Shown here: piece by piece, positions 10,247-35,300 of the stretch
Position numbering within the stretch: position 1 is the first letter of the stretch
Layout of the letters: each line of letters opens with the position of its first letter
From: Branchiostoma floridae
Taxonomy: Eukaryota > Chordata > Leptocardii > Amphioxiformes > Branchiostomatidae
Length of the DNA stretch: 64,000 nucleotides
Direction: 5' to 3'
Assembly: GCF_000003815.2 (NCBI RefSeq)
Contig: NC_049992.1
Location: forward strand, 17,457,432-17,521,431
Position numbers and translations under genes: made by a program
The notes under the pieces: generated by a model
Told to the model about the DNA's origin: nothing
Database searches by the model: none
Seen by the model: the letters and a program-made list of their open reading frames with translations, nothing else

Positions 10247-10536
10247 AGTTGGCCATATGATTCTACACGACCACCAAGGTAAACCTTCATGAATTGTTAC
10301 ATTTAACCCTATTACTATACATACGGACCATGTACCGCTCATTTAGAGAGACTCCATCATTGTGTACAAATACTATTCATGACTGACATGTATCATTGAT
10401 AGCTTGAATACTTGTTTATTGATATGATGATATAGTTTAAGTCTTACTTGAATACTTGTTTATTGATATGATGATATAGTTTAAGTCTTACTTCTTGTAG
10501 CTATAATGCACCTTCAATATCTTTATCTTCAAGGAC
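10247..10536 (+). repeat. ORF1-ORF2 spacer with a 44-bp tandem duplication
   Basis: The 290-bp spacer has no coding potential. Positions 10403-10446 are repeated exactly at 10447-10490 (unit starting CTTGAATACTTG and ending AAGTCTTA). Confidence 0.9.
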
Positions 10537-13500
10537 ATGGAGAAAAAATCTGCGCTAGTTTTCTCAAGTTGGAATATCCAAGGTAGTGTTAAGAAGAAGT
10601 TTAGCGAGGAAGAGTTTTGTAATTACTTTAGAAATAGTGATATTGTTTGTATACAAGAAACCTGGACAGACAATTATGTAGATTTTCAGTTTCCAGGGTA
10701 TAGTTTGTTTAGTAGTAATAGATGTAGAAATAAGAGGGCAAAACGTAATTCGGGTGGGGTTGCGACTATTTTCAAAAGTTCGCTCAGAAAGGGGATTAAA
10801 AAATTAGAGAGTAGTTCAGTCGACAGCATTTGGTGCAAACTTGACAAAAAATTCTTTGGACTCGAAAAAGACCTATTCCTTTGCAACATTTACATCCCTC
10901 CTGAATCCTCAAATTCCATACAAGTTGACCCATTTGATACATTATCCATTGATATCTGCAAATTCTCCAATCTTGGCGACATAATCATCCTAGGGGATTT
11001 CAATGCTAGAACAGGATCTGTTTTGGAAACCTACTTTAGTATTGATTCCCCGGATGACCCCCTGACAAAATATGTTTTAGATACAAAGAAAAGGAATAAT
11101 AGAGATTTTAAAGTAAACAATTACGGTCAACGCCTCATAGAATTGTGCTCGTCGGCTGATTTGACCATCTTGAATGGCAGATTCGCGGGGGATCTGAAAG
11201 GTGATTTTACATGTTACCATTATAATGGTTCAAGTGTGGTGGATTATTGCATCACTCAAAGGTCGATGTTAGCCGATATACAATATATGAATGTAAATTC
11301 TATATCGCCATTCTCCGATCACTGTCACATCTCTTTCTCACTGTCTACAAAGCACTCTCCTCTAGTCCTGAAGGAGGATAGCCAATGTTATGATCCTAAA
11401 CCAACACAATTTACTTGGACTGACGAATCCAAACAATTATATTTAGATACTATAAACAACAAAAACACGCGTTCAAAACTGAGGAATTTCTGCAACAAAA
11501 CATTTCACTCGTCAGAGGAGGCCGTAACAAGCTTCACTGAAATTTTATTAGATGTTTCCAAAAGCTCTCTTAGAATAAGACGTAACATACAAAACAAGAA
11601 AAAGACACAAATCAAAAAGAACAAAATTTGGTTTGATCAAAATTGTTGGTCCCTACGTCATAGAGTTAAAAGATTATCTTTAGAACTGAGGAAAGAACCA
11701 TGGAAACAAGAAACCAGAACGAAGTACTTCACAGCCTTGAAAGACTACAAAAAAATTATAAAACATTCTAAACGGAATTATAAAGCCAATCTATTACGTG
11801 ATCTAGAAACATTAAATGAGAAAAACCCCAAACAATTTTGGTCATTGTTCAATACTCTTGATAAGGAAGTAAACGGCACAAAATATAGCGGTAATATAGA
11901 TCCTAATATCACAAGTAAAGAATGGATAGAACACTTTCAAGGATTAAATAATCTGGTAAAAAACAATGATTTTGACAGTACTTTTGAAAAAAGTGTCACT
12001 GATTCTCTTAAACATCTAGATAAAAACACTTCAAATTCATTAGATTACCCTTTCACGACACCAGAAATTATGAATGGTTTGAAATCACTAAAATCTGGAA
12101 AATCATGTGGTATTGACTCTATCTCAAACGAGATGTTGAAATATGGGGCAGAAAAGATATGCGAACCACTGGTCATTCTCTTTAATACAATCCTTTCCAA
12201 CAACAAGTTTCCATCTAACTGGAACACAAGCATCCTTACACCAATTTTTAAATCTGGCGACAAATCTAATGTAGATAATTATAGAGGAATCGCTATCTCA
12301 AGCTGCCTATCCAAATTGTTCACATTCCTTTTAAATAGTCGCTTACAGAAATTCGTTGAAAGCAATTGTCTGCTAGCCGACACTCAATTCGGATTCAGAA
12401 GAAAGTGCCGAACCTCTGACAATGTACATGTATTTATCCTGAAAGCTCTTATTGAGAAATATATTGAAAAAAAGAGAGGGAAATTATATGTTTGCTTTGT
12501 TGACATGAAGAAAGCGTTTGACAGTGTATGGCGGGATGGTTTATTCTACAAATTGTTAAATTATGGTGTTGGCGGCAAATTCTTCAATGTATTGCAATCC
12601 ATGTACCTCAATGTTAACTATACTGTCAGACTACAAAATGGCCTGTCAAGCCCCTTTGTTTCCACATGCGGAGTAAGACAAGGCTGCAATCTCAGCCCAT
12701 TATTATTCAATATTTTTATTAACGACTTACCTCAATGCTTTGATGATAAATGTGATGCCGCAATTTTGAATTCTAAATCACTCAACTGTCTATCTTGGGC
12801 AGATGACTTAGCCTTGATCTCATTGTCGAAAGAGGGGCTTCAGAATTGTATCAATAACCTGGAAGCTTATTGCAACGAATGGAAATTAAGGGTCAATGTA
12901 TCCAAAACGAAAGTACTGCTTTTTACAAAAGGTTCTATTAACAGATTATCAAACAAATTCTATATATATGGCAAAGAAATACAAGTAGCCGACAGTTATA
13001 CTTACCTTGGTATTCCCCTGACTTCTTCGGGAAAGTTTAAAGCAGCCAGGAAATATTTAAAGACTAAAGCCATGAGAGCTTTATTCAAATTGAAGTCACT
13101 TTTATTCTCTGAAAAGAACATTCCAATTCATTTAGGAATGAGCCTTTTCAACAAGTTTGTACTGCCTATTCTACTGTACGGAGCCGAACTCACATGTTTT
13201 GACCAAACTTCTAAAACAATCAAAATTATTGTATCAAAACAAATTCCAGAATCTTCACCCAAAACTGTTTTCTCTTCCTTTTTAAACAAACTCCATTTAG
13301 AGGGAGATCTTCCTGCAACTGTTAGAAAGAGTGTGTCTTCGGACCTCACTCATACTTACGTCATCCATTTTAAGAAAAGATCAGACAAGGATAGATTATT
13401 GAGACTGGCATCAGGAATGAAATTAGAAAATGACAACTTCGCAATTGAAAACATACGACTTCCTTCACATATTAGTATCCCAGAATTTGATACCATTGAC

Positions 13501-14280
13501 ATGAATTTCCAAAAATTTTTACTTGGAGTACATGCAAAATCATCAAATGACGGCATCCGTGGTGAGTTAGGATCATTTCCTATTTCGATCAACGCTGAGA
13601 TACAATTAATCAAATACTGGCACCGTCTAGCAAACTTACCCGAAGATTCTTTACTACGTGAAGCATATGATGTTGTACTTTCCGGTGAATACGATTGGAC
13701 AAATCACGTAACTGACATTCTCAACTATAATGGTTTTGGGTATGTATGGACAAACCCGAGGTTGTATCATGTTAATACGCTAATCGACCAATTACGACTC
13801 CGTTTACAGGATATATACATTCAAGAATGGCATTCTTCTATCCAGAATAACTCAAAACTTTCTATTTATTCTACGCTAAAGGAAAGATACGGACAAAAGA
13901 AGTATCTTTCGAATGTACACAATTTCGAACTTCGTAGAGCAATTACAAAGATAAGAATCTGTAGTCACAAACTAAATATAGAAGCCGGAAGATATTCTAA
14001 AATTCCCCGTGACCAGAGGTTTTGTCCATTCTGCCCAAATGAGATCGAAGACGAACGTCACTTCGTTATGGAATGTTCTCGATATGATGATAAACGCACA
14101 GAGCTGTTCACATTACTTTCCACTTCCTCTAAAGACTTTGCTACTCTCTGTTCGATAGATAAATTCAAGTACATTCTGGGAAGCGATAATCCACATTGTG
14201 TACAAGTAGGCAAATATATCCACGATTGTTTATACCGTAGAACCAATAGTGTAAATGACATGCTAAACCCTTTATGTTGA
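10537..14280 (+). CDS. Retrotransposon ORF2: AP endonuclease / reverse transcriptase
   Basis: Uninterrupted 1247-residue polyprotein that would nick the target and copy the element's RNA. Endonuclease (residues 1-265): SSWNIQG, QETW, IYIPP, GDFNAR at about 153 and SDHCHI at about 260 are the catalytic blocks of the exonuclease III-like fold. Reverse transcriptase (about 560-830): NYRGIAIS, QFGFRRKCRTSDN, FVDMKKAFDSVW at about 655, GVRQGCNLSPLLFNIFINDL and the active-site WADD at about 754 (Trp in place of the usual Tyr or Phe). C-terminus (about 1150-1200): CPFC...HFVMEC, a zf-RVT zinc knuckle. The ATG at 10537 is chosen because the endonuclease begins eleven residues later. An intact frame of this length suggests recent insertion. 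Confidence 0.95.
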   Translation: MEKKSALVFSSWNIQGSVKKKFSEEEFCNYFRNSDIVCIQETWTDNYVDFQFPGYSLFSSNRCRNKRAKRNSGGVATIFKSSLRKGIKKLESSSVDSIWCKLDKKFFGLEKDLFLCNIYIPPESSNSIQVDPFDTLSIDICKFSNLGDIIILGDFNARTGSVLETYFSIDSPDDPLTKYVLDTKKRNNRDFKVNNYGQRLIELCSSADLTILNGRFAGDLKGDFTCYHYNGSSVVDYCITQRSMLADIQYMNVNSISPFSDHCHISFSLSTKHSPLVLKEDSQCYDPKPTQFTWTDESKQLYLDTINNKNTRSKLRNFCNKTFHSSEEAVTSFTEILLDVSKSSLRIRRNIQNKKKTQIKKNKIWFDQNCWSLRHRVKRLSLELRKEPWKQETRTKYFTALKDYKKIIKHSKRNYKANLLRDLETLNEKNPKQFWSLFNTLDKEVNGTKYSGNIDPNITSKEWIEHFQGLNNLVKNNDFDSTFEKSVTDSLKHLDKNTSNSLDYPFTTPEIMNGLKSLKSGKSCGIDSISNEMLKYGAEKICEPLVILFNTILSNNKFPSNWNTSILTPIFKSGDKSNVDNYRGIAISSCLSKLFTFLLNSRLQKFVESNCLLADTQFGFRRKCRTSDNVHVFILKALIEKYIEKKRGKLYVCFVDMKKAFDSVWRDGLFYKLLNYGVGGKFFNVLQSMYLNVNYTVRLQNGLSSPFVSTCGVRQGCNLSPLLFNIFINDLPQCFDDKCDAAILNSKSLNCLSWADDLALISLSKEGLQNCINNLEAYCNEWKLRVNVSKTKVLLFTKGSINRLSNKFYIYGKEIQVADSYTYLGIPLTSSGKFKAARKYLKTKAMRALFKLKSLLFSEKNIPIHLGMSLFNKFVLPILLYGAELTCFDQTSKTIKIIVSKQIPESSPKTVFSSFLNKLHLEGDLPATVRKSVSSDLTHTYVIHFKKRSDKDRLLRLASGMKLENDNFAIENIRLPSHISIPEFDTIDMNFQKFLLGVHAKSSNDGIRGELGSFPISINAEIQLIKYWHRLANLPEDSLLREAYDVVLSGEYDWTNHVTDILNYNGFGYVWTNPRLYHVNTLIDQLRLRLQDIYIQEWHSSIQNNSKLSIYSTLKERYGQKKYLSNVHNFELRRAITKIRICSHKLNIEAGRYSKIPRDQRFCPFCPNEIEDERHFVMECSRYDDKRTELFTLLSTSSKDFATLCSIDKFKYILGSDNPHCVQVGKYIHDCLYRRTNSVNDMLNPLC

Positions 14281-23300: not shown

Positions 23301-26300
23301 TCCTCCGGCCCATTGTGTACCTAGGCCAAACCGATGTTTTGGGCAAACAGTCAGTTTGCTTTTTTCCTCCTCCGAGAGATTGAACCTACCCGATCTGTTC
23401 AGAATCAGGTTCTGCTCTGTAATATCTGCCTGCCCCTGTCCACGTCCACTGAGACCTAGGCTGAATAGGTACTGCGTTACGTCTCTCTTGCAGGCAGTTA
23501 CTGGTATGACAGATATATCTGACGGAGAGTAATGTGAAGAACCACACTCTGACTCCGGGCTTGCAAACGTGCAACTCATTGTTTAGCAACCTACACGAAG
23601 GACACAAAACCGTATAAACTACATGGAATAAATCGGCCATACATGAGAACTCTCAACACACATTTGCAGTAAAATGCAAGACTTACATTGTAATACATGC
23701 AACTGACCCCTGAAGGTTCAATAGAAACACTGTGAGATGTCACAATAATGGGAATGTCTCCGTTCATTCTTAACTATTCATGAATTATTATGATGTACAC
23801 TTACTAAGGGCTTAATTACGATGAAAGTAAAATGCTGGAACCTTACCCTTGTGTATGGTTGTTTCAAAACTCCAAGTTTTCCTGTGAATTCTGGCCTCCA
23901 CTCATCTGGTGGTGCCTTTGGGGTTTTTAGAGTGTCTTAACATTCTCTTGAATGGCCATTTGAATCAGTGGAAATACAAAAAAGTGCCCTTAGCAAAGAG
24001 TAAAAATACCTTAGACAAACGACTGTGTTAGTGGACAATGAAATTCAAAGCTAATGTGTATTTTGTCAACATATCTGTGCCCAAAACCCATAGAAAACCC
24101 CGCGTTAGGTAAAGAGGTCATCAGATCCTTATCTTTATAGCATGACCCCAATCGTCTGGGTCAAACCTTAGAATAACAGAACAAGGCACAGTTTCTGACT
24201 GGGGGAAATGAGGGAGGGTTTAAATTACACCAAGACTTGCTCATTGTCATCTATCCAGCACGCTTTCGTACTGGAAATAAGGAGCAGCTAAAGTGTTCCT
24301 TTTCTTGATGTAAAAGATATGTTGGAAGAAAAGTCATAAAGAAATCAGTTGTCTTATCTTAGAATTTATTCATTCTTTTTTTAGTTTTAAATTTATGATT
24401 TATCTGCAAAAAAAACGGACATGGCAACGATTTTGCTTTTCTTATTTCTACATTGATAATCCCAGGTCCTAATTCCAAGAAGAACGTTTGAAAAACATTG
24501 AAATGAAGCGCTGTTTGTTCACAAAAAAGTTCACAAGAAATGCAGGTCACACTATAGGCACAGTTATGAAAATAGCTAGTTTGCATTTGGAAAACCCCAT
24601 GCAGGGCCGTCTGGAGTTGTCGGATAGAGTGATAATAATAATGATAAGCTTTACGTCTTCTTGATTAGTAACAATGTTGCTTTTTACTATAGAAGCTTGA
24701 ATAGCTACCCTACCGAAACTGGCTTCTCAGCATTTTATTGACGAAAAACCGACACATCCTTGTAACGACACACTATATCATCGAGTATATGTGGCCCAAC
24801 TGGAGGACAACTGTTTTTGAACGACATGTTCGTCTCTCCAGCAACGTTAAGGGGTGGGGGGGTGGGGGTGGGGGTGGGGAGTTAAATTAGTTGTTGTTAA
24901 AGAAAAGAAAAGTATACATGTATTTAGTAAGAGCTAACATCTGTTCAATAACTTAACACATTAAGTCTGCGCATATAGGACAAATGCAGTATCACTACTA
25001 TATCAGATAAGTACAATTTTGCAAAACCCCATACACAGCCTTGTCATTGACTGCGTAGTAACAGGACCGTATATACAGCGTAACTTTTAGCAAACGGAGT
25101 AGAGAACAGCAATCAAATTTTGATAATAATCAGCATGCGAAATCATATTTGAAGATCCTTAAAACCCCCATATGGAGCCCATGTCTATATCTGTAATCGC
25201 TCCTAGTATCTATTATAATAATCTATTGTGTTTACTTCATAAAACAACAAATCTACCCATGACATCCCCCATAGTAAGATGTCATTACCTGATTTATTGT
25301 AATAAAAAATCCCAGAACACCCCATAAAGATCCTCCAGTCACGACTGACATTATCTATGTCCCAATTAGACGACAACTGTTTCTGAATAACCACATGTTC
25401 CTCTATCCAGCAACATTAAAATCATTCTCCAAAACCACCGCTCACTTGAGAAAAAGGCCTCTAAAAATTTTGAGCTGAAATTTGTGAAAATTCTGATCCC
25501 TGTCCTGGTAATATTAGAACGAGTATTTACCTACGACTTTGATTTCCAGATACCCTAAGTACAGTAGTTTCTTACCACAAAATCTGGGGCCTTGGCATTG
25601 ACATTGAAAGGGTGAACAAGGGGGTTATCAGAACCATTAAAATGTAAATTTTGCCATCGTTGAATTTTAGCCATTTTTAGAGGCCTTTTTCTCAAGTGAG
25701 CGGTGGTTTTGGAGAATGGTTTTAATGTTGCTGGATAGAGGAACATGTGGTTATTCAGAAACAGTTGTCGTCTAATAGAGTTAATTCCAGTTGTGGCGGC
25801 CATGTTGGATTTCCGGGGTCATCCGGGGTCATGGCACCAGAACGAGACTGCAGGTGGTACCAGCTGGGCATTCTACTATATAGGCTGTATTGCAGACATA
25901 AGTATGCCATCTTCGGGAGTGCATTTCACCCCTCTAAGGTTAACAACTGCACAATATATGCCTGTTATCTATAGAAAATACTGTTTTGGAAATTTGAACT
26001 TGATTTTGGTGATATTTTTTATTAATTTTTCACATTTTTTGACGGGTGACCTGAGAACAATTAATGTCAGTGTTTATATCCTCCATGTGTGCTGTGTATC
26101 GGTATCTGTGATTAAAACCTACAAAAACATGGAAATATCGGGGTGACAAACCTTTTGGTAGAAATTTAGAAGACATTTGGCTGTTATTCTGATGATTTCT
26201 AGATGCCAAGAACCGTTCTGCAAACTCCGCTCTATGGGAAAATCCTGCGGCACTCAATGGGGAAGGCGGTGTATGTACCGGGTGTGCTCCTTTACTTGTT

Positions 26301-29300
26301 TCCCAATTTATCTGACAGTGTTTTTATTGTTTTATTTTAGTTTAAACAACATACCCCGTAAGAAAAATGTCCACATGTTGTATAACATTGTGGGATGAAA
26401 TGTAGCAGATTGTTTACTGTTGTTTTTGCAATTTTTTCAATGCCAAGGTGGGAAAAAAAAACATAACTTTGATTATAAGTGCCAGCGGAGGAGGGATTGT
26501 AGCCTGAGTGTCATCCTAGGTAGCTTACCGGGCTCCCATACTCACCCCTCACAAACCAGAGGGGTGAGTATGAGAGCCTCCGTAACCAACTAGGATAATA
26601 CTCAGGCTAGAGTCGACCCTCACATTACTCTAAAAACCGGACTTCATGCCAGTTTCAGATCAGTGTGGGTGGAAATGTGACAGAATTTTCACAGACGCTG
26701 CGAACATCTGTTAAAAAAACTACGTATTACTAAGTTCTATCACCAATTTACCTCTTCCACTGACGATAAAATTTACGTTTTTCTCCACATTGGCATTGAA
26801 AAATCCCTAACAGAAAAAAATCTGCTACATTTCATCCCACAATTTTATGGACCCAACATGTGGAATTTGTTGTGTAGGGTTATGTTGTTTAAACTAGAAT
26901 AAAACAATGAAAACATGATTTGGGAAGAAAGCAAAGGAGCACACCCGGCATGACATTCCCATAGAGAGTAGTTTGCAGAACGGATCTTGGCATCAATACA
27001 TCATCAGAACAACTGCCAAATGTCTTCTAAATTTCTACCCGCAAAGATGTCATCCACATATTTTGTGTATTTGTAGGGTTTTATCCCAATAGTAAACCTA
27101 CTATATCACAGTTACCAATACAAAGCACTCATGGATGATATAAACACTGACACTAATTGTTCTCAGGTCACCCATAAAAAATGTGAAAAATTGATTAAAA
27201 AATATCACCAAAATCAAATTCAAATGTCCCAAACAATATTTTCTATATATAACAGGCATATATTGTGCAGTTGTTAACCTTAGAGGGGTGAAATGCACTC
27301 CCGAAGATGGCATACTTATGTCTGCAATACAGCCTATATAGTAGAATGCCCAGCTGGTACCACCTGCAGTCTCGTTCTGGTGCCATGACCCCGGATGACC
27401 CCGGAAATCCAACATGGCCGCCACAACTGGAATTAACTCTATTAGACGACAACTGTTTCTGAATAACCACATGTTCCTCTATCCAGCAACATTAAAACCA
27501 TTCTCCAAAACCACCGCTCACTTGAGAAAAAGGCCTCTAAAAATGGCTAAAATTCAACGATGGCAAAATTTACATTTTAATGGTTCTGATAACCCCCTTG
27601 TTCACCCTTTCAATGTCAATGCCAAGGCCCCAGATTTTGTGGTAAGAAACTACTGTACTTAGGGTATCTGGAAATCAAAGTCGTAGGTAAATACTCGTTC
27701 TAATATTACCAGGACAGGGATCAGAATTTTCACAAATTTCAGCTCAAAATGCCTTGATTTTTTGGGGTCCCAAAAGGGGATCCCAGAACTCCACAACCAA
27801 AGATACCTGAGAAGTTTTAATTGTATGGTTGGTGAAGGTTCCACCCACCTATCCCACATGCAAAATATGAGCGGATTTGGCTGACCCCCATCTTCCGACC
27901 TCTGCCTGGTTTTCTCATGCAATGACTCTTAATGTGTTTTTGTTAACCTTTATGATTGTTGAAAAAACGTGTGTCCATAACCATTTTCTGCACTAATTAT
28001 CATCTGGACAGGTAGTAATAAACTACATTGAAGTAATCATATAAAACGCCCCTCAAATTCTCTGGCTAAAAAATGCCACCTAGCGACTTTTGTAAAACTA
28101 CAGAAAAGATTCCCATGCATCCTTTACTTACGTTTATAAACGGGTTGTCCTGAACAAGTTGTAGGGCGATATCGGTGCACCCAAGGGCTTGTGCGTCGGT
28201 AGGGACTTTGCCGTCATGTTCCCACGCCCTGAATGTGAAAGGTAAAAAATTCAAAACATTTTCTATCATCTGGTCGGCGTTATCCATGTGGATGTCTTTA
28301 TGAGGGGTGCCTAAGCATTCGCACGAACCCTATGAAATTCGTACGAATATTATGTGATACGCACGAACCACTATGCAAAAACGCACGAATATTATGAAAT
28401 TCGCACGAATCACTATGCGAAAACGTACGAATTTTATGAAATTCGCACGATTCACTATGTGACACTAACGAACACTATGTGATTCGCACGATCCTTATGC
28501 GAAACCAGCGGCCGGGAGGAGGCATGATTTTGATCGTTTCTACCCGTGATATTTATATTTCAAGGCATGCAATGGACATTTACCGTCGCAAAGATGTATT
28601 TGATAGCCTGTGAGCTACTGTTTTGCTTCATTTCGGCGTGTTACATCGTATTTTCCGTCGCCGAAGCGGCGAAGCCGCCATCTTGAAAATCCCGCTCCGT
28701 CTGTCACGTGACCCCGGCAGTGGTTACGCAATTTCGCATAAGGATCGTGCGAATCACATAGTGTTCGTGTGTGTCACATAGTGATTCGTGCGAATTTCAT
28801 AATATTCGTGCGTTTTTGCATAGTGTTTCGTGCGAATTTCATAATATTCGTGCGTTTTCGCATAGTGATTCGCGTGTATCACATAATATTCGTACGAATT
28901 TCATAGGGTTCGTGCGAATGCTTAGGCACCCCTGTTTATCAAGGATCACGATGTTGCGAACTCTCGAAGTTTTGGGGAATCACGCGTGGTTTGGCAAATC
29001 ACGCGTGATTCCACGAGACCTAGAGAGGGAAGAGGTAACAAACTGCAGCACGTCACCGGAACGTACTGCGCCTGCGCGAAAAGTATAGACATGCTAAACC
29101 TTGCTAAACCCCCGGTTTACTAAAGGGCCGCATTTAAGAAAGTACGTGCGTATATAAGGGTGAAATCCCGTGTACGTTTTACATGAAACCATGTCTCTAA
29201 CATATATTGTGCAACAAGCGGGATTTCAATGCAACGTTGACCAAACCAAGCCCCAAACCACCAGGGTTCGCGCAGGCGCAGTACGTTCCGGTGACGTGCT

Positions 29301-32300
29301 ACAAACTGCTACATTTGCACCACTATTTATTCTGTTAACCCATTGGTCCGATAGGGATGACGTCACTTCCGGTTACCAGGTATATATAGAGGTGCACACC
29401 TGAGCACAACGTGCATGCTGCCAGATTCCCCGACCACGTCTGGGTCCACACTCCGCCGGCACCGCCGAAGCAAACATGTCCAAGCTGAAGATGCCGACAG
29501 GAGGTTTGCGTTAGTTTCAGCGCCCAGTGACGGTCGGTCTGGGACGCCGAAGGGACCTCGAGGGTTTAGCGGTATCGCTGGGTCGGCGTACGGGGGACGT
29601 TGGTCCCCCGGAAGGTTTGACGAGATATTCTGTGTCTCCTCGTGTTTTCAATTACCGTGTGTGCTTTCAGGAGTGCAGAGTACCGTCCTTGTTCTTGCCG
29701 TGCTGGACACCTGGAATTCTGAGGGCCGGCTGTATTGTTCTAACATTTACATTTCTGTCGCGTATTCGTATGTATGAGCTTTTAGCGGCTCGGGGGAGGA
29801 TGGCCGCCTTACACCATTTTTCGTTTTACAGCTTCAATTTTTTTTTCCTAGGCCGGGTCGAGTTTAGGACGTTTTTAGTTCACGCTGGTGTTCTGTTCTG
29901 CGTGGAGCTGAGTGATTCTTGTGTGGTTTCGTGACCTTGTGTATGTTTTTAGCAGCGTTCGACAGCAACATCCAAGCAGATAGTTGGTGCCCACGTGGCA
30001 AGCCGGGGGTTCTCTGAAATTCCTTTGTCGCCATGTTTTTGCATCCTTTCTATCCTCTGCAAAGGAAACCTGGGGGTGTTGGCTTTTATGCTGAGGTGTG
30101 GAGCAGAACGAGAGTTTCCAGATTTTATGTCATTTTCTGATTTCGTGAATATTTTCAGGCAGGAACAGAGGAAGACGATGGCATGGTCCAGGAGGCTGTG
30201 TTGGGGTTTTCTGCTACCATTTGTTTTAGTTTGTATGTGTATGAGTGTGCACCTGTAAGGCGTGGTGACTGAGTTGTGGACACGCGTGGCCCCAGACACT
30301 CCACGTAACGCGGCTCGCTCGCATGTGGGATCTGGGCGGTGTGGAAGTTGCGTATGTTTTAGACTTGTCTGTCTGGGACCGGACCTGTTGCCGGGCACCC
30401 GTCCCTTCCCACTGTCTCATGGTTCACGTGTTGTTCATACAGGTCTGACGCTTTCCCCCTCCAACAACAGGGATGCGCGGGACACACCACCACCCAGAGC
30501 CGGCATAAGCCACCCTCAACCTCGCCAGATGTGCGGCCTGATAGGACCCGTTGGTGGCCTGCACAAGCCTTAGCAGCAGAGAGGGCTCAAGACGCGCCGG
30601 GAACCTGTTAGCCGAACAATTAGGCTGTGATGTTTTATATTGTGAACCATGTTTTTTGTGCCGAACATAGTGCTACAAGGGACAGCGGTCAGAGGATCAG
30701 GGTCGACTGGCGCTCCAGTCCCCGACACCGCCCAGCCCCTGCCGGTCAGTTCAGCTAACCCCGCCGACAACTCAAGGAACCGTAAGTCATTTTCCCCCTA
30801 CTTTTCGTGAATAAATTTTTGACATGTCGTTCTCCAGTGCGATGGGGTGCCGCGGGATGCTGGAGGGTTAGGATCTAATCGAGCAACCCTGTTTTGAGAT
30901 TGGTCTGACCAAGAACGTCTTTGGTCTGACGCCGTTTATAGCACGGCAAGATATCGTTCAGTGCGATGGGGTTCCGCGGTAAGCTGAATGACCCCCCCCC
31001 CCCCCCCAAAAAAAAATGTGCAGTCTTTCTTCAGCTCGGTGTGACGTTATCCAGTGCGAAGGGTTTCCGCGGAAGGCTGGACGATCCGAGAAACTGTGTT
31101 CTTTTAATCCTTTTTCGTGATTTGTTGTGATATCATCCAGTGCGAAGGGGTTCCGCGGAAAGCTGGATTCTTGGAAAACCCTAAAAGTTGTGTACGCTCT
31201 TGTTTGACATTTGGCGATTTTATCCAGCGCGACGGGGTCCCGCGGAAGGCTGGATAACATGCTATGCGGGAGTGTGTAAGGACTTGGTCCGGACTGAGGC
31301 TCGGTTATAGTGTATGTGGGACACGGGCATAAGGAATGGAGTGGGCAATATGTTTTGCGTTTTTTGAAATTGTGCGCATAGGATTTTGTTGTTTTTCGGT
31401 ACATTGCGGATTTTGCCAGATGCACTAGAGAGCTCCCTTTATGGGACATCAGAAGGGCGTGGTTCCGATCCCAAAGTCGCCGAGTAGATAGGATAGCATT
31501 CGAAGAATTTTCATTCCTTCCTGTTTTCGCTCAACTTATGTACGTGGAGAAATTTAGATCGGTATTCTCGGCGTTGACTTTCCCTCAGTTTTCGAAGCGC
31601 GATTAGAGTGGGTAAACGTTGTTTTGATGAAGTTCAGAGAAGAACATGATGAAGTGTGGGGGACAAGTCGAGAGATATAAGAAAGGGATTGGATGGGTAA
31701 GGGGAGAGGAAAGGTGAGAGAGTGATGATAAGGACGGGAAGACGGGATGAAGATAGGGAGTGATTTTAACAGTTTCAGGAAGAGGAAAGGAGCGACTAGA
31801 TACCTTTGGAAAGTATCATAGTAGGGAGGCGACGAAGTGAAAGCAATTGAATGCCGGGAATAGGTAGGAGCATAACAGCCAAAGAGGGCTGGGGCAAAGA
31901 CGGCAGTTTTCCGCATCACTTCATACCGGAGGATCAATGGCGAACAGGACAAATAGGATACTATTTATTCTGTTCGCCCATTGGTCCGATAGGGATGACG
32001 TCACTTCCGGTTACCAGGTATATATAGAGGTGCACACCTGAGCACAACGTGCATGCTGCCAGATCCTCCGTCCTCGTCTGGGGCCTAAAGCGAACCCGCC
32101 CACCCAACCCTCGACATGTTCTCGCTTCGGGCGGTGCTGGGCGCCCGCTATACGGCGGGCGCATTAGCTCACAGACAACTTTAGGCTTCAGACGGCAGTT
32201 TTCCGCATCACTTCATACCGGAGGATCAATGGCGAACAGGACAAATAGGATACTTTCTCAACTGCAGAGATCACCTTGTCTGATGGTGGCAAGCAAGTCT

Positions 32301-35300
32301 AGCATAACAGCCATGCTAGGGTAACACAATGGATCTCGACGTTTTAGGGAATCGATCACGCGACTGGCCCTCCCCGAAGGAGGCCGGCCGGATGTTAAGG
32401 TGATATCTCACTGCACTTGGGGCATCGGTGCGGCACTGCGGGGTACGAAAGATGACGAATTTCAGAGATAAAGAACGAATTTTCTTACGTTTTGTGCATT
32501 CTGTTGTCTTCTAAGTCATACTTATACGTGTTACGAAAAATCTAGATTATAAAAAAAATCGGCAAAATAACAAAATCATGTCGCAGTCAACGAACCCCGC
32601 AGTGACACACCGGTGTCCCAAATGCAGTGAGATACCACCTTTAGGCGGGCTGATATAAGCGATATTTTATCAGGCTAGAGGTGAACGTCCTTTCCGTCCC
32701 ACCTGTTTGCTGCATAGGCGTATGATGCGGCGGGAGTGGCGTGGGTGATTCGTGACGTCACAACGATGCCGGTGGACTTCCCTGTCTCGAGAAAAAAAAA
32801 TTACACAATCAATATACAGGACTTTGCTTAAAATATATAGGCTATTGTTGAACTTTATCTATATATCTCTACATGTATCTACGATCTATCTATCAACATC
32901 TATATCTATCTATATCTAGCTAGCTACAGCTACAGCTATCTATCTATTTATATATAACTATCTTTCTCTCTCTCTCTTTCTAAATTTGTGTGTATATGCT
33001 ATGAAAGTTAATCCATATAATAACGAATAACATATATTACATCATGCAGAATACTATAGGCACTTTGTGTTAATGATAGTTCTAGATGTTCATTTGTCAT
33101 AGACACAAACTTTAGTTTACTTTTGTGATTCCTCGTGCAAAGTGAACGACATTAGTTAGCGCACGAAATATAGAAGCGTTACGTTAACGTTTTTTTTCAC
33201 CTTTATCCACGGCGAAACCTCTATCCGTCGCTTTTAAAAACGGGGTATTTGAGGATATCAAGTCGACGGACGGAGGTTCCAAACTGCAGTATTTTGAAAA
33301 TATTGTGACTACCCTTCGTCGACTTGATATCCCCAAATACCATATGCATGTTATGATTCAGACTCATGGACACTAACTAAGTCTCTGTCCAACAAACTGG
33401 ATGGTAACTACACACGTCTGCTTCGTTACGCTCTGAATGTACCCTGGCAGAGTCGCATCGGAAACAAAAAAAAACTGTACAACGGACTTCCCCCGATCAC
33501 TAGAACTATTTAGAATAGAAGACTGGCTCTTGCTGGCCATGTAGCACGTCAGGAGGAGATGGCTGCCAAATAAAGTTCTCCTCTGGGAACCTGAAGCGAA
33601 GAGAAAAAGGGGACGACCGAACCTGACACTTAAGAAAGTTCTGGAGGATGAGGTCGGTTTAAAGGACCACAACTTGCTAGCCGCCATGCTAGACAGAGAT
33701 GCATGGTCGGACATTGTTAATGGCACCTCATATGAGGATGAACTGAACTGAACTGTTCCAAAAACAACGGACATAGGTTACCCCGCGGTTAAAGGTGAAC
33801 TAGCGTTACCTGCAGCGTGCGCGTGTTCGAGGACGGACGTGACTTTTCCAGTTAGACTGGCGGCACAGTCGCCATAGGCCACCGTTCCGTCCACTGCTAA
33901 GGTCTCGTAGTTCGCCTTCACGCATCAATACCATGTTCCCAAAACAACAACGGGTATAGGTTACCCCGCGGTTAAAGGTGAACAAGCCTTACCCGCAGCG
34001 TGCGCGTGTTCAAGGACGGACGTGACTTTTCCAGTTAGACTCGCGGCACAGTCGTCATAGGCCACCATGCCGTCCACTCCCAGGGTCTCGTAGTTTGCCT
34101 TCACGCCTCCCAGATATGCTGTTGCGGTAGCCGCGGAGTCCCCAGTCTGACGGTCTAAGTTATACGTCTGCAACGACAACGGAAAAAGCGAAAAGTGATG
34201 TAAAAGTTACGACGTGGTCGCATTTGTAGTAGAATTTTAAAGCAGGCTGTAACAAAGCCGACCGCTGACAATACATACATACATACATAATTCATCCGGC
34301 TTTACACCGGTGAGGCACAGTCCAAAGCACAAGTTTTCCAGTATGATCCTTCATGGCAGACACTAAACTTGACCCTGACAGTCCAATGTCTCTTTCTATC
34401 ATTGTCTTTAAGGTAATGTATGGTCGGCCAACTCTGCGCCTTCCTTCTGGCAGCGAGTCCATCAGTCTCCCTGCAGGCTCGTTCCCACGAACCACGTGCC
34501 CTGCCAGGGCGAGCCGGCGCCGCCTCACCACAGATGAAATGGCTGGGAGTGGGCCGTATAGTTGCTTGTTGGTTAAACAGTCTCTCCATGAAACATTATA
34601 CACCTTTCTCAACATTTTCGTATAAGTACCATCCAATACAATAATTGAGATATGTAAGGCAAGTGCACGACAAGTGCACCTGTAAAACATAATTAAAAGG
34701 ACACACACACACACAAATTTCTCTAAAAGACAAAAGTAGGTAAATCGCCTTTTGGCGACAAATGTTTGTAGTTATAGCGACTTTTGGCGTAGAATAAGTG
34801 TTATGATAGCGCCCATTTGCATTTTCTAAAAATAATTTTTTTACCGTAGGTACTTAAGATGATAAATTAGTTCCTTTTCCCAACCAGTTGAAGGATGTCT
34901 TTGGCCAATAGTTACTAACACAGGCACGGCCCGATGGGATACCTGCTAAACGAACCACCAACGAATAAACGAACCAACGAACGAACCAACGAACGAACCA
35001 ACGAACGAACCAACGAACCAACCAACCAACCAACCAACCAACCAACCAACCAACCAAACAAACAAACAAACAAACAAGCAAACAAACAGACAAATTAACA
35101 CAACCAAACAAACAAATAGCCAGTGTTTACACAATCTCTCGCTGGCTGTGGTTAATAACCCCCCCCCCTTCCGAGACGGTGGCAACTGTAAAGCCAGCCG
35201 CTAGGAGCGCGATTTTAGTCAGGCTAACAACTAACCAACCAACCAAACTATCCAATGATTCTAACAAAACAATCAAACAAACAAGCTCACAGAAACAACC

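Follow-up and report, generated by a model that had tools for sequence, protein, structure and literature searches.

Within the 64,000 nucleotides of Branchiostoma floridae DNA analysed here (the window), a 507-residue open frame at 240-1760 carries class C GPCR domains (7tm_3, NCD3G), and a 1257-residue open frame at 10507-14277 with endonuclease and reverse transcriptase (RT) domains is of the non-LTR retrotransposon type. Fold-back repeats are found at 25467-27750 (646-nt arms, 97% complementary) and at 28303-28933 (arms of 202 nt that are 95% complementary and contain ATTCGCACGAA-type subrepeats), and a 183-bp unit is present in two direct copies with 91% matches at 33763-34106. The subject of this report is an array of five hairpin motifs spanning 30823-31257, together with the 2.93-kb non-autonomous split-direct-repeat (SDR) element copy (29322-32254, plus strand) that contains it; an earlier note on this DNA saw the array but missed the enclosing element.

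The pattern CAGYGCGANGGGKTNCCGCGGNANGCTG finds the five motifs at 30823-30864, 30947-30988, 31040-31081, 31126-31167 and 31213-31254, with copy-to-copy spacings of 124, 93, 86 and 87. It was derived from these same copies and thus has zero mismatches there by construction; at up to three mismatches it finds no other site in the 64 kb and none in 100 shuffles, so that the five motifs reported earlier stand, and stand alone in the window. A covariance model (R1), whose training set comprised the window copies and other copies, recovers all five with E-values between 3e-16 and 2e-13; the only other match under E 1 is the minus strand of copy 5 (E 0.2). Hairpins 1, 2 and 4 (30830-30867, 30954-30991 and 31133-31170, all plus strand) are placed by pattern, covariance model and pairing by array position, hairpin 2 having T-A at a C-G stem position. 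Hairpin 3 (31047-31084, plus strand; pattern, covariance model and folding) has a lowest-energy fold that differs, and hairpin 5 (31220-31257, plus strand) is placed by copy listing, covariance model and folding. The architecture combines an outer stem of 9 bp with an inner GCG/CGC helix, which the earlier description lacked, a loop of 9 nt and, on the 3' side, a bulge of 5 nt. The stem change TCCAG/CTGGA versus TTCAG/CTGAA that had been pointed out is confirmed, with copy 2 as its carrier, and the 9-bp stem of copy 5 is likewise found (TTATCCAGC/GCTGGATAA). The loop core, previously described as constant, is nearly invariant, with exceptions in copy 3 (GGGTT) and copy 5 (CGCGA). The earlier wording that structure and not sequence is maintained is thus not borne out, as the loop itself hardly varies in sequence and it is the closing stem that changes in paired fashion.

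The element has the order A1 - interior - B1A2 - spacer - B2, i.e. two pairs of direct repeats in plus orientation, and its limits were set by alignment to genome copies and by the ends common to 14 complete copies. The terminal repeat A1 (29322-29447) is 94% identical to the internal repeat A2 (31960-32085), and the internal repeat B1 (31898-31962) is 100% identical to the terminal repeat B2 (32190-32254), whose right end is GGATACT; B1 and A2 are joined via GGATACTATTT, as seen from repeat comparison and from the junction in copies. TATA boxes lie in plus sense in both A1 (TATATATAG, at 29381) and A2 (at 32019). All 14 complete copies (the window, L009, L010, L013, L014, L015, L016, L017, L018, L019, L020, L022, L024 and L028) start with CTATTT, end with GGATAC and have GGATAC joined to TATTT at the inner junction; the base after the terminal GGATAC is T in 13 of them and A in L017. 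Copies that are cut, interrupted or too diverged for both ends to be read (L011, L012, L021, L023, L025, L026 and L027) were omitted from this count. Target-site duplication was sought by script in five copies and found in none, L017 having been trimmed one base too short in the script but giving an identical outcome by eye, and the flanks of the other nine, inspected by eye, share 3 bp in L015 and 2 bp in L020, with no common length and in a manner compatible with chance. A 26-base pattern for the B1/A2 junction gives 61 genome matches against 0 for the control. Among the matches listed on C2-C7, 26 of 27 were compared with the exact hairpin motif (C7:25020368, beyond the listed motifs, was omitted), and 21 of the 26 lie 618-822 bp from it; three more at 905-1025 bp are apparently B2 ends belonging to these elements, one lies 10.2 kb from a motif, and for the last the distance is 430 kb.

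Two further features of the interior deserve mention. A block at 30310-30500 (plus strand) is the most conserved interior block of the element, at 85-95% between four subfamilies versus 76-91% in 40-column windows on the hairpins, which are thus not its sole conserved part. At about 30196-30200 the window copy is without a segment that measures 179 bp in L017 and 179-238 bp in eight copies, and that in seven of the eight starts with AAGATGGCGA, which we take to resemble a YY1 site. An intron was ruled out for the 179-bp segment, which is bounded by GAGGC microhomology and not by GT-AG.

Hairpins of this kind are dispersed through the genome. A 21-base form of the motif, with up to two mismatches allowed, matches 315 times in 513,431,437 bases, compared to 6 for a reversed control pattern; the 100 exact matches listed (to C7:17,993,596) fall into 28 clusters, and among these 22 hold three to five motifs. 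Twenty regions around motif clusters were taken for comparison with the window, giving 106 motif instances in all with one cut instance omitted. Diverged arrays of five to seven copies occur at L001, L004, L006 and L027 within shared near-identical blocks (parts of which read N) and adjoin a minisatellite of ~40 bp. The exact motif occurs in no stretch of the viral or prokaryotic contigs searched, similarity searches against phage records (with 30400-31700) and plasmid records (with the element) led to the rejection of both relationships, and membership in an Rfam family was ruled out by a covariance-model search of 30500-31600, which gave no match at E up to 10. A limited literature search on DIRS-type tyrosine-recombinase retrotransposons and packaging signals found no described counterpart of the array.

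The 102 instances with at most two mismatches reduce to 62 distinct 54-mers and 51 distinct 44-mers, and among the latter 91.3% of cells are paired under the hairpin structure. Pair 8-37 is CG in 40 sequences, UA in 11 and broken in none; pair 9-36 and the inner helix pair 14-26 each show one double change (CG to AU and CG to UA, respectively), pair 12-33 varies between UG (37) and CG (14), and pair 6-39 has five double changes yet is unpaired in 18. More copies with covarying stems thus exist, as the earlier note had anticipated. None of 500 shuffles matched the observed percent paired, the number of double-change cells or the covariation score, and controls with the structure slid along the alignment pair in 26-47% of cells. 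Against this, the number of pairs with a double change was matched in 145 of 500 shuffles and the number of pair types in 393, i.e. neither is above chance, and a slide by +1 gives 5 double-change pairs versus the 4 observed; the independent double changes are perhaps as few as three to five. Among representative copies, six have an intact hairpin 2 (the window, L014, L015, L018, L022 and L024; in L025 it is broken up by an insertion), and in all six that hairpin shows the UA state. This state also occurs at hairpin 3 of L027 and at hairpin 4 of L018. Its presence at different array positions means that the switch arose at least twice, or once with subsequent conversion.

RNAalifold, unaided, returns the same eight core pairs, and all eight form in 99 of 106 instances. 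The folding energies of window hairpins 1-5 are ordinary (shuffle z-scores of -0.65, -1.88, +0.41, -0.30 and -2.52), hairpin 3 favours another fold, and the minus strand of hairpin 5 folds just as well as the plus strand, all of which count against an RNA signal. On the plus strand G-U accounts for 68 of 612 cells compared to 13 for A-C, which would be G-U on the opposite strand; the difference favours a plus-strand RNA, and it counts against this reading that a single pair supplies 37 of the 68.

Constraint on the hairpins was gauged in 20 copies sorted by hand into six subfamilies (L027 was dropped), with the surroundings taken as the aligned stretch that runs from some 250 bases 5' of the array to 300 bases 3' of it. 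Of the 15 subfamily pairs compared, 14 show differences of 2.6-8.9% in the hairpin cores and of 21-42% in the surroundings; in the closest pair, A-A2, the values are 1.5% and 4.6%. Within subfamilies too the hairpins are less diverged than the surroundings, with core-to-rest ratios of 0.51 (seven copies), 0.47 (three), 0 (four), 0 (two), 0.21 (two) and 0.89 (two), a result from small counts that weighs against the RNA-signal reading. Simple tandem duplication with random mutation, which the earlier note had named as an outcome that would overturn its view, fails to explain the difference between cores and surroundings. Since the hairpins have diverged far less than the flanking DNA, they may be a recognition handle for the machinery that copies the element.

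The window element has no reading frame of 200 residues or more, the longest frames in six element copies are of 138-192 residues, and nine frames, among them each copy's longest, had no Pfam family match at E 0.1; a protein-coding origin was rejected on these grounds. The idea of a coding signal 5' of the array was likewise rejected, since L022 and L024 do not agree in codon-position bias and a stop interrupts L024 where the L022 frame is open. The split-direct-repeat layout is known from Ngaro-like and PAT-like tyrosine-recombinase retrotransposons in the available portions of three papers (PMC4157794, PMC9210276, PMC8547959), and Ngaro-like elements of amphioxus, one with a distinct repeat arrangement, are on record in the available portion of a fourth (PMC2632668). 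With the Ngaro/PAT type (DIRS order) the window element shares the A1...B1-A2...B2 repeats, the lack of a consistent target duplication, and one B/A junction as a fixed crossover core. Unlike that type it has no recognisable Gag, RT, RNase H or tyrosine recombinase frame, and the five-hairpin array goes unmentioned in the portions of PMC8547959, PMC9210276, PMC4157794 and PMC2632668 that were available. A similar repeat pair occurs 3' of the recombinase in four recombinase loci of this genome (L049, L051, L052 and L041); its two copies are exact, in direct orientation, 67-95 bp long and separated by 346-1075 bp. The ends of the element are unlike these B repeats, whose position 3' of the recombinase frame implies the same plus sense for the element. 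Because no coding frame is recognised, the element is filed as a non-autonomous SDR element and not as a full Ngaro/PAT-type member; from its sequence it is taken to be a non-autonomous split-direct-repeat retrotransposon of Ngaro/PAT-type layout. An LTR retrotransposon was rejected, as neither two whole terminal repeats nor a 4-6 bp target duplication is present.

The family presumably owes its mobility to proteins supplied by a tyrosine-recombinase element. Two genome searches gave at least 51 and at least 87 recombinase matches. Among the matches listed, the 56 recombinase places on C1-C7 are all more than 24 kb away from any exact motif listed, a comparison in which two adjacent fragments were merged, C7:22179835 lay beyond the listed motifs and some stretches read N. 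In 16 loci from coding elements with a recombinase, the best match of covariance model R1 had E 0.99 and is not a confident copy, and among the recombinase loci examined no coding element carrying the array hairpin was found; both results count against an RNA signal. A 1087-residue frame beside the L023 copy was rejected as the partner, its endonuclease and RT domains being those of a non-LTR element.

A coding element represented by L042 and L038, with RT and recombinase above the Pfam cut-off and RNase H only below it, does have a hairpin array of its own. In L038 (1100-1600 in oriented coordinates), and also in L043 and L044, five units of ~108 bp lie 3' of the recombinase frame, and three units can form hairpins of the type AGTAC[AACTAGAACGTCT]GTACT, AGTAT[AACTAGAACGTTT]ATACT or a mixed form. 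This array resembles that of the window in its five units and in the paired change AGTAC/GTACT to AGTAT/ATACT, and differs from it in having another loop, 108-bp units and no match to R1. No split direct repeats of at least 12 exact bases were found between the two examined sides of L038/L042. A relative of L038, L039, has seven near-identical hairpin units, so that arrayed hairpins lie 3' of the recombinase in two of the 13 loci scanned (L037-L041, L045-L052); a later 157-bp tandem array of L041 contains a weak repeat hairpin, and the other ten loci gave none. The scan covered at most the first 2,400 downstream bases and called for an exact 8-mer, one loop length and three copies, settings at which no more than three of the five hairpins in the window are detected at a time. 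A general association of hairpin arrays with recombinase elements is suggestive only.

Upstream of the array, a splice-donor-like GTAAGT (30782-30787, plus strand), a putative splice site, belongs to a GTRAGTC that is present in seven of seven aligned copies (the window, L014, L018, L022, L024, L025 and L001). It precedes the first hairpin stem by ~40 nt, and conservation breaks directly after it in the manner of an exon end. The sole AATAAA of the window element, at 30810, is also 5' of the array and, if used, would end the RNA early in this copy, which counts against an RNA signal; it is absent from the other five copies aligned there. Some retroviral packaging signals lie 3' of a splice donor. 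The opposite case, a signal upstream of the donor, is described for RSV in the available part of PMC5035971.

Given what was observed of the element's anatomy, of its copies across the genome and of how its hairpins pair and are constrained, we tentatively propose, giving it somewhat less than an even chance, that the array is a multivalent cis-acting RNA-protein recognition signal of a non-autonomous SDR family, with packaging as the first and export as the second function. A plus-sense RNA would be transcribed from the A1 TATA box and would display four to seven copies of one hairpin; a partner protein, most likely Gag or RT and less likely a host export factor, would bind these multivalently and so select the element RNA for packaging and reverse transcription. 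More speculatively, since the array comes after the donor-like GTRAGTC, it would mark unspliced RNA only. The earlier interpretation is partly supported, with packaging or protein binding as putative roles. It is a rather doubtful further step that the protein-less element keeps a bulged-hairpin array 3' of a donor in order to capture the proteins of a coding partner, the L038 array being the same device with another key. Retroviral packaging signals and the CTE/RRE offer an analogy only, in their compact or repeated RNA structures within unspliced RNA; the window array differs in having neither an Rfam match nor a known protein.

The main rival to a packaging-type signal is a constitutive RNA export or stability element, by analogy to the CTE, through which a host NXF1-type adaptor would export unspliced RNA with no need of a partner protein. 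Retroviral export elements do serve unspliced RNA (PMC4829213, in the part available), and a stem with an asymmetric bulge, repeated several times after a conserved splice-donor-like site, is what such an element might look like; however, the Rfam search gave no match and the loop is not tied to any known factor, and we consider this explanation unlikely, though well worth keeping in view. That the array is a tandem duplication with little or no function, its likeness due to recent duplication or gene conversion, has a parallel in the tandem array of no known function 3' of the L039 recombinase (98-bp units, 97% matches), but the conservation lies in the hairpins and not in the spacers, and positions in the array have recognisable counterparts from one subfamily to another, which makes it improbable.

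Sites that act as DNA, bound by the recombinase or a host factor, would account for the single orientation within each array and for the strong sequence conservation. The excess of G-U over A-C cells favours instead a single plus strand, and the inferred crossover core is located at the B1/A2 junction and the termini, more than 0.6 kb from the array, so that the recombination signal entertained in the earlier note is unlikely and DNA-level sites in general are quite improbable. Dimerisation of the RNA by kissing loops through the palindrome CCGCGG, which most copies keep, appears more improbable still, as the fifth letter is A in 4 of 62 distinct sequences, single rows break it at three other places, and three of its six letters belong to the supported inner helix.

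How tyrosine-recombinase retrotransposons choose their own RNA may, to judge from a limited literature search, be undescribed. An SDR family that encodes no protein and has kept a hairpin array through six subfamilies thus provides a small and testable candidate for such a signal.
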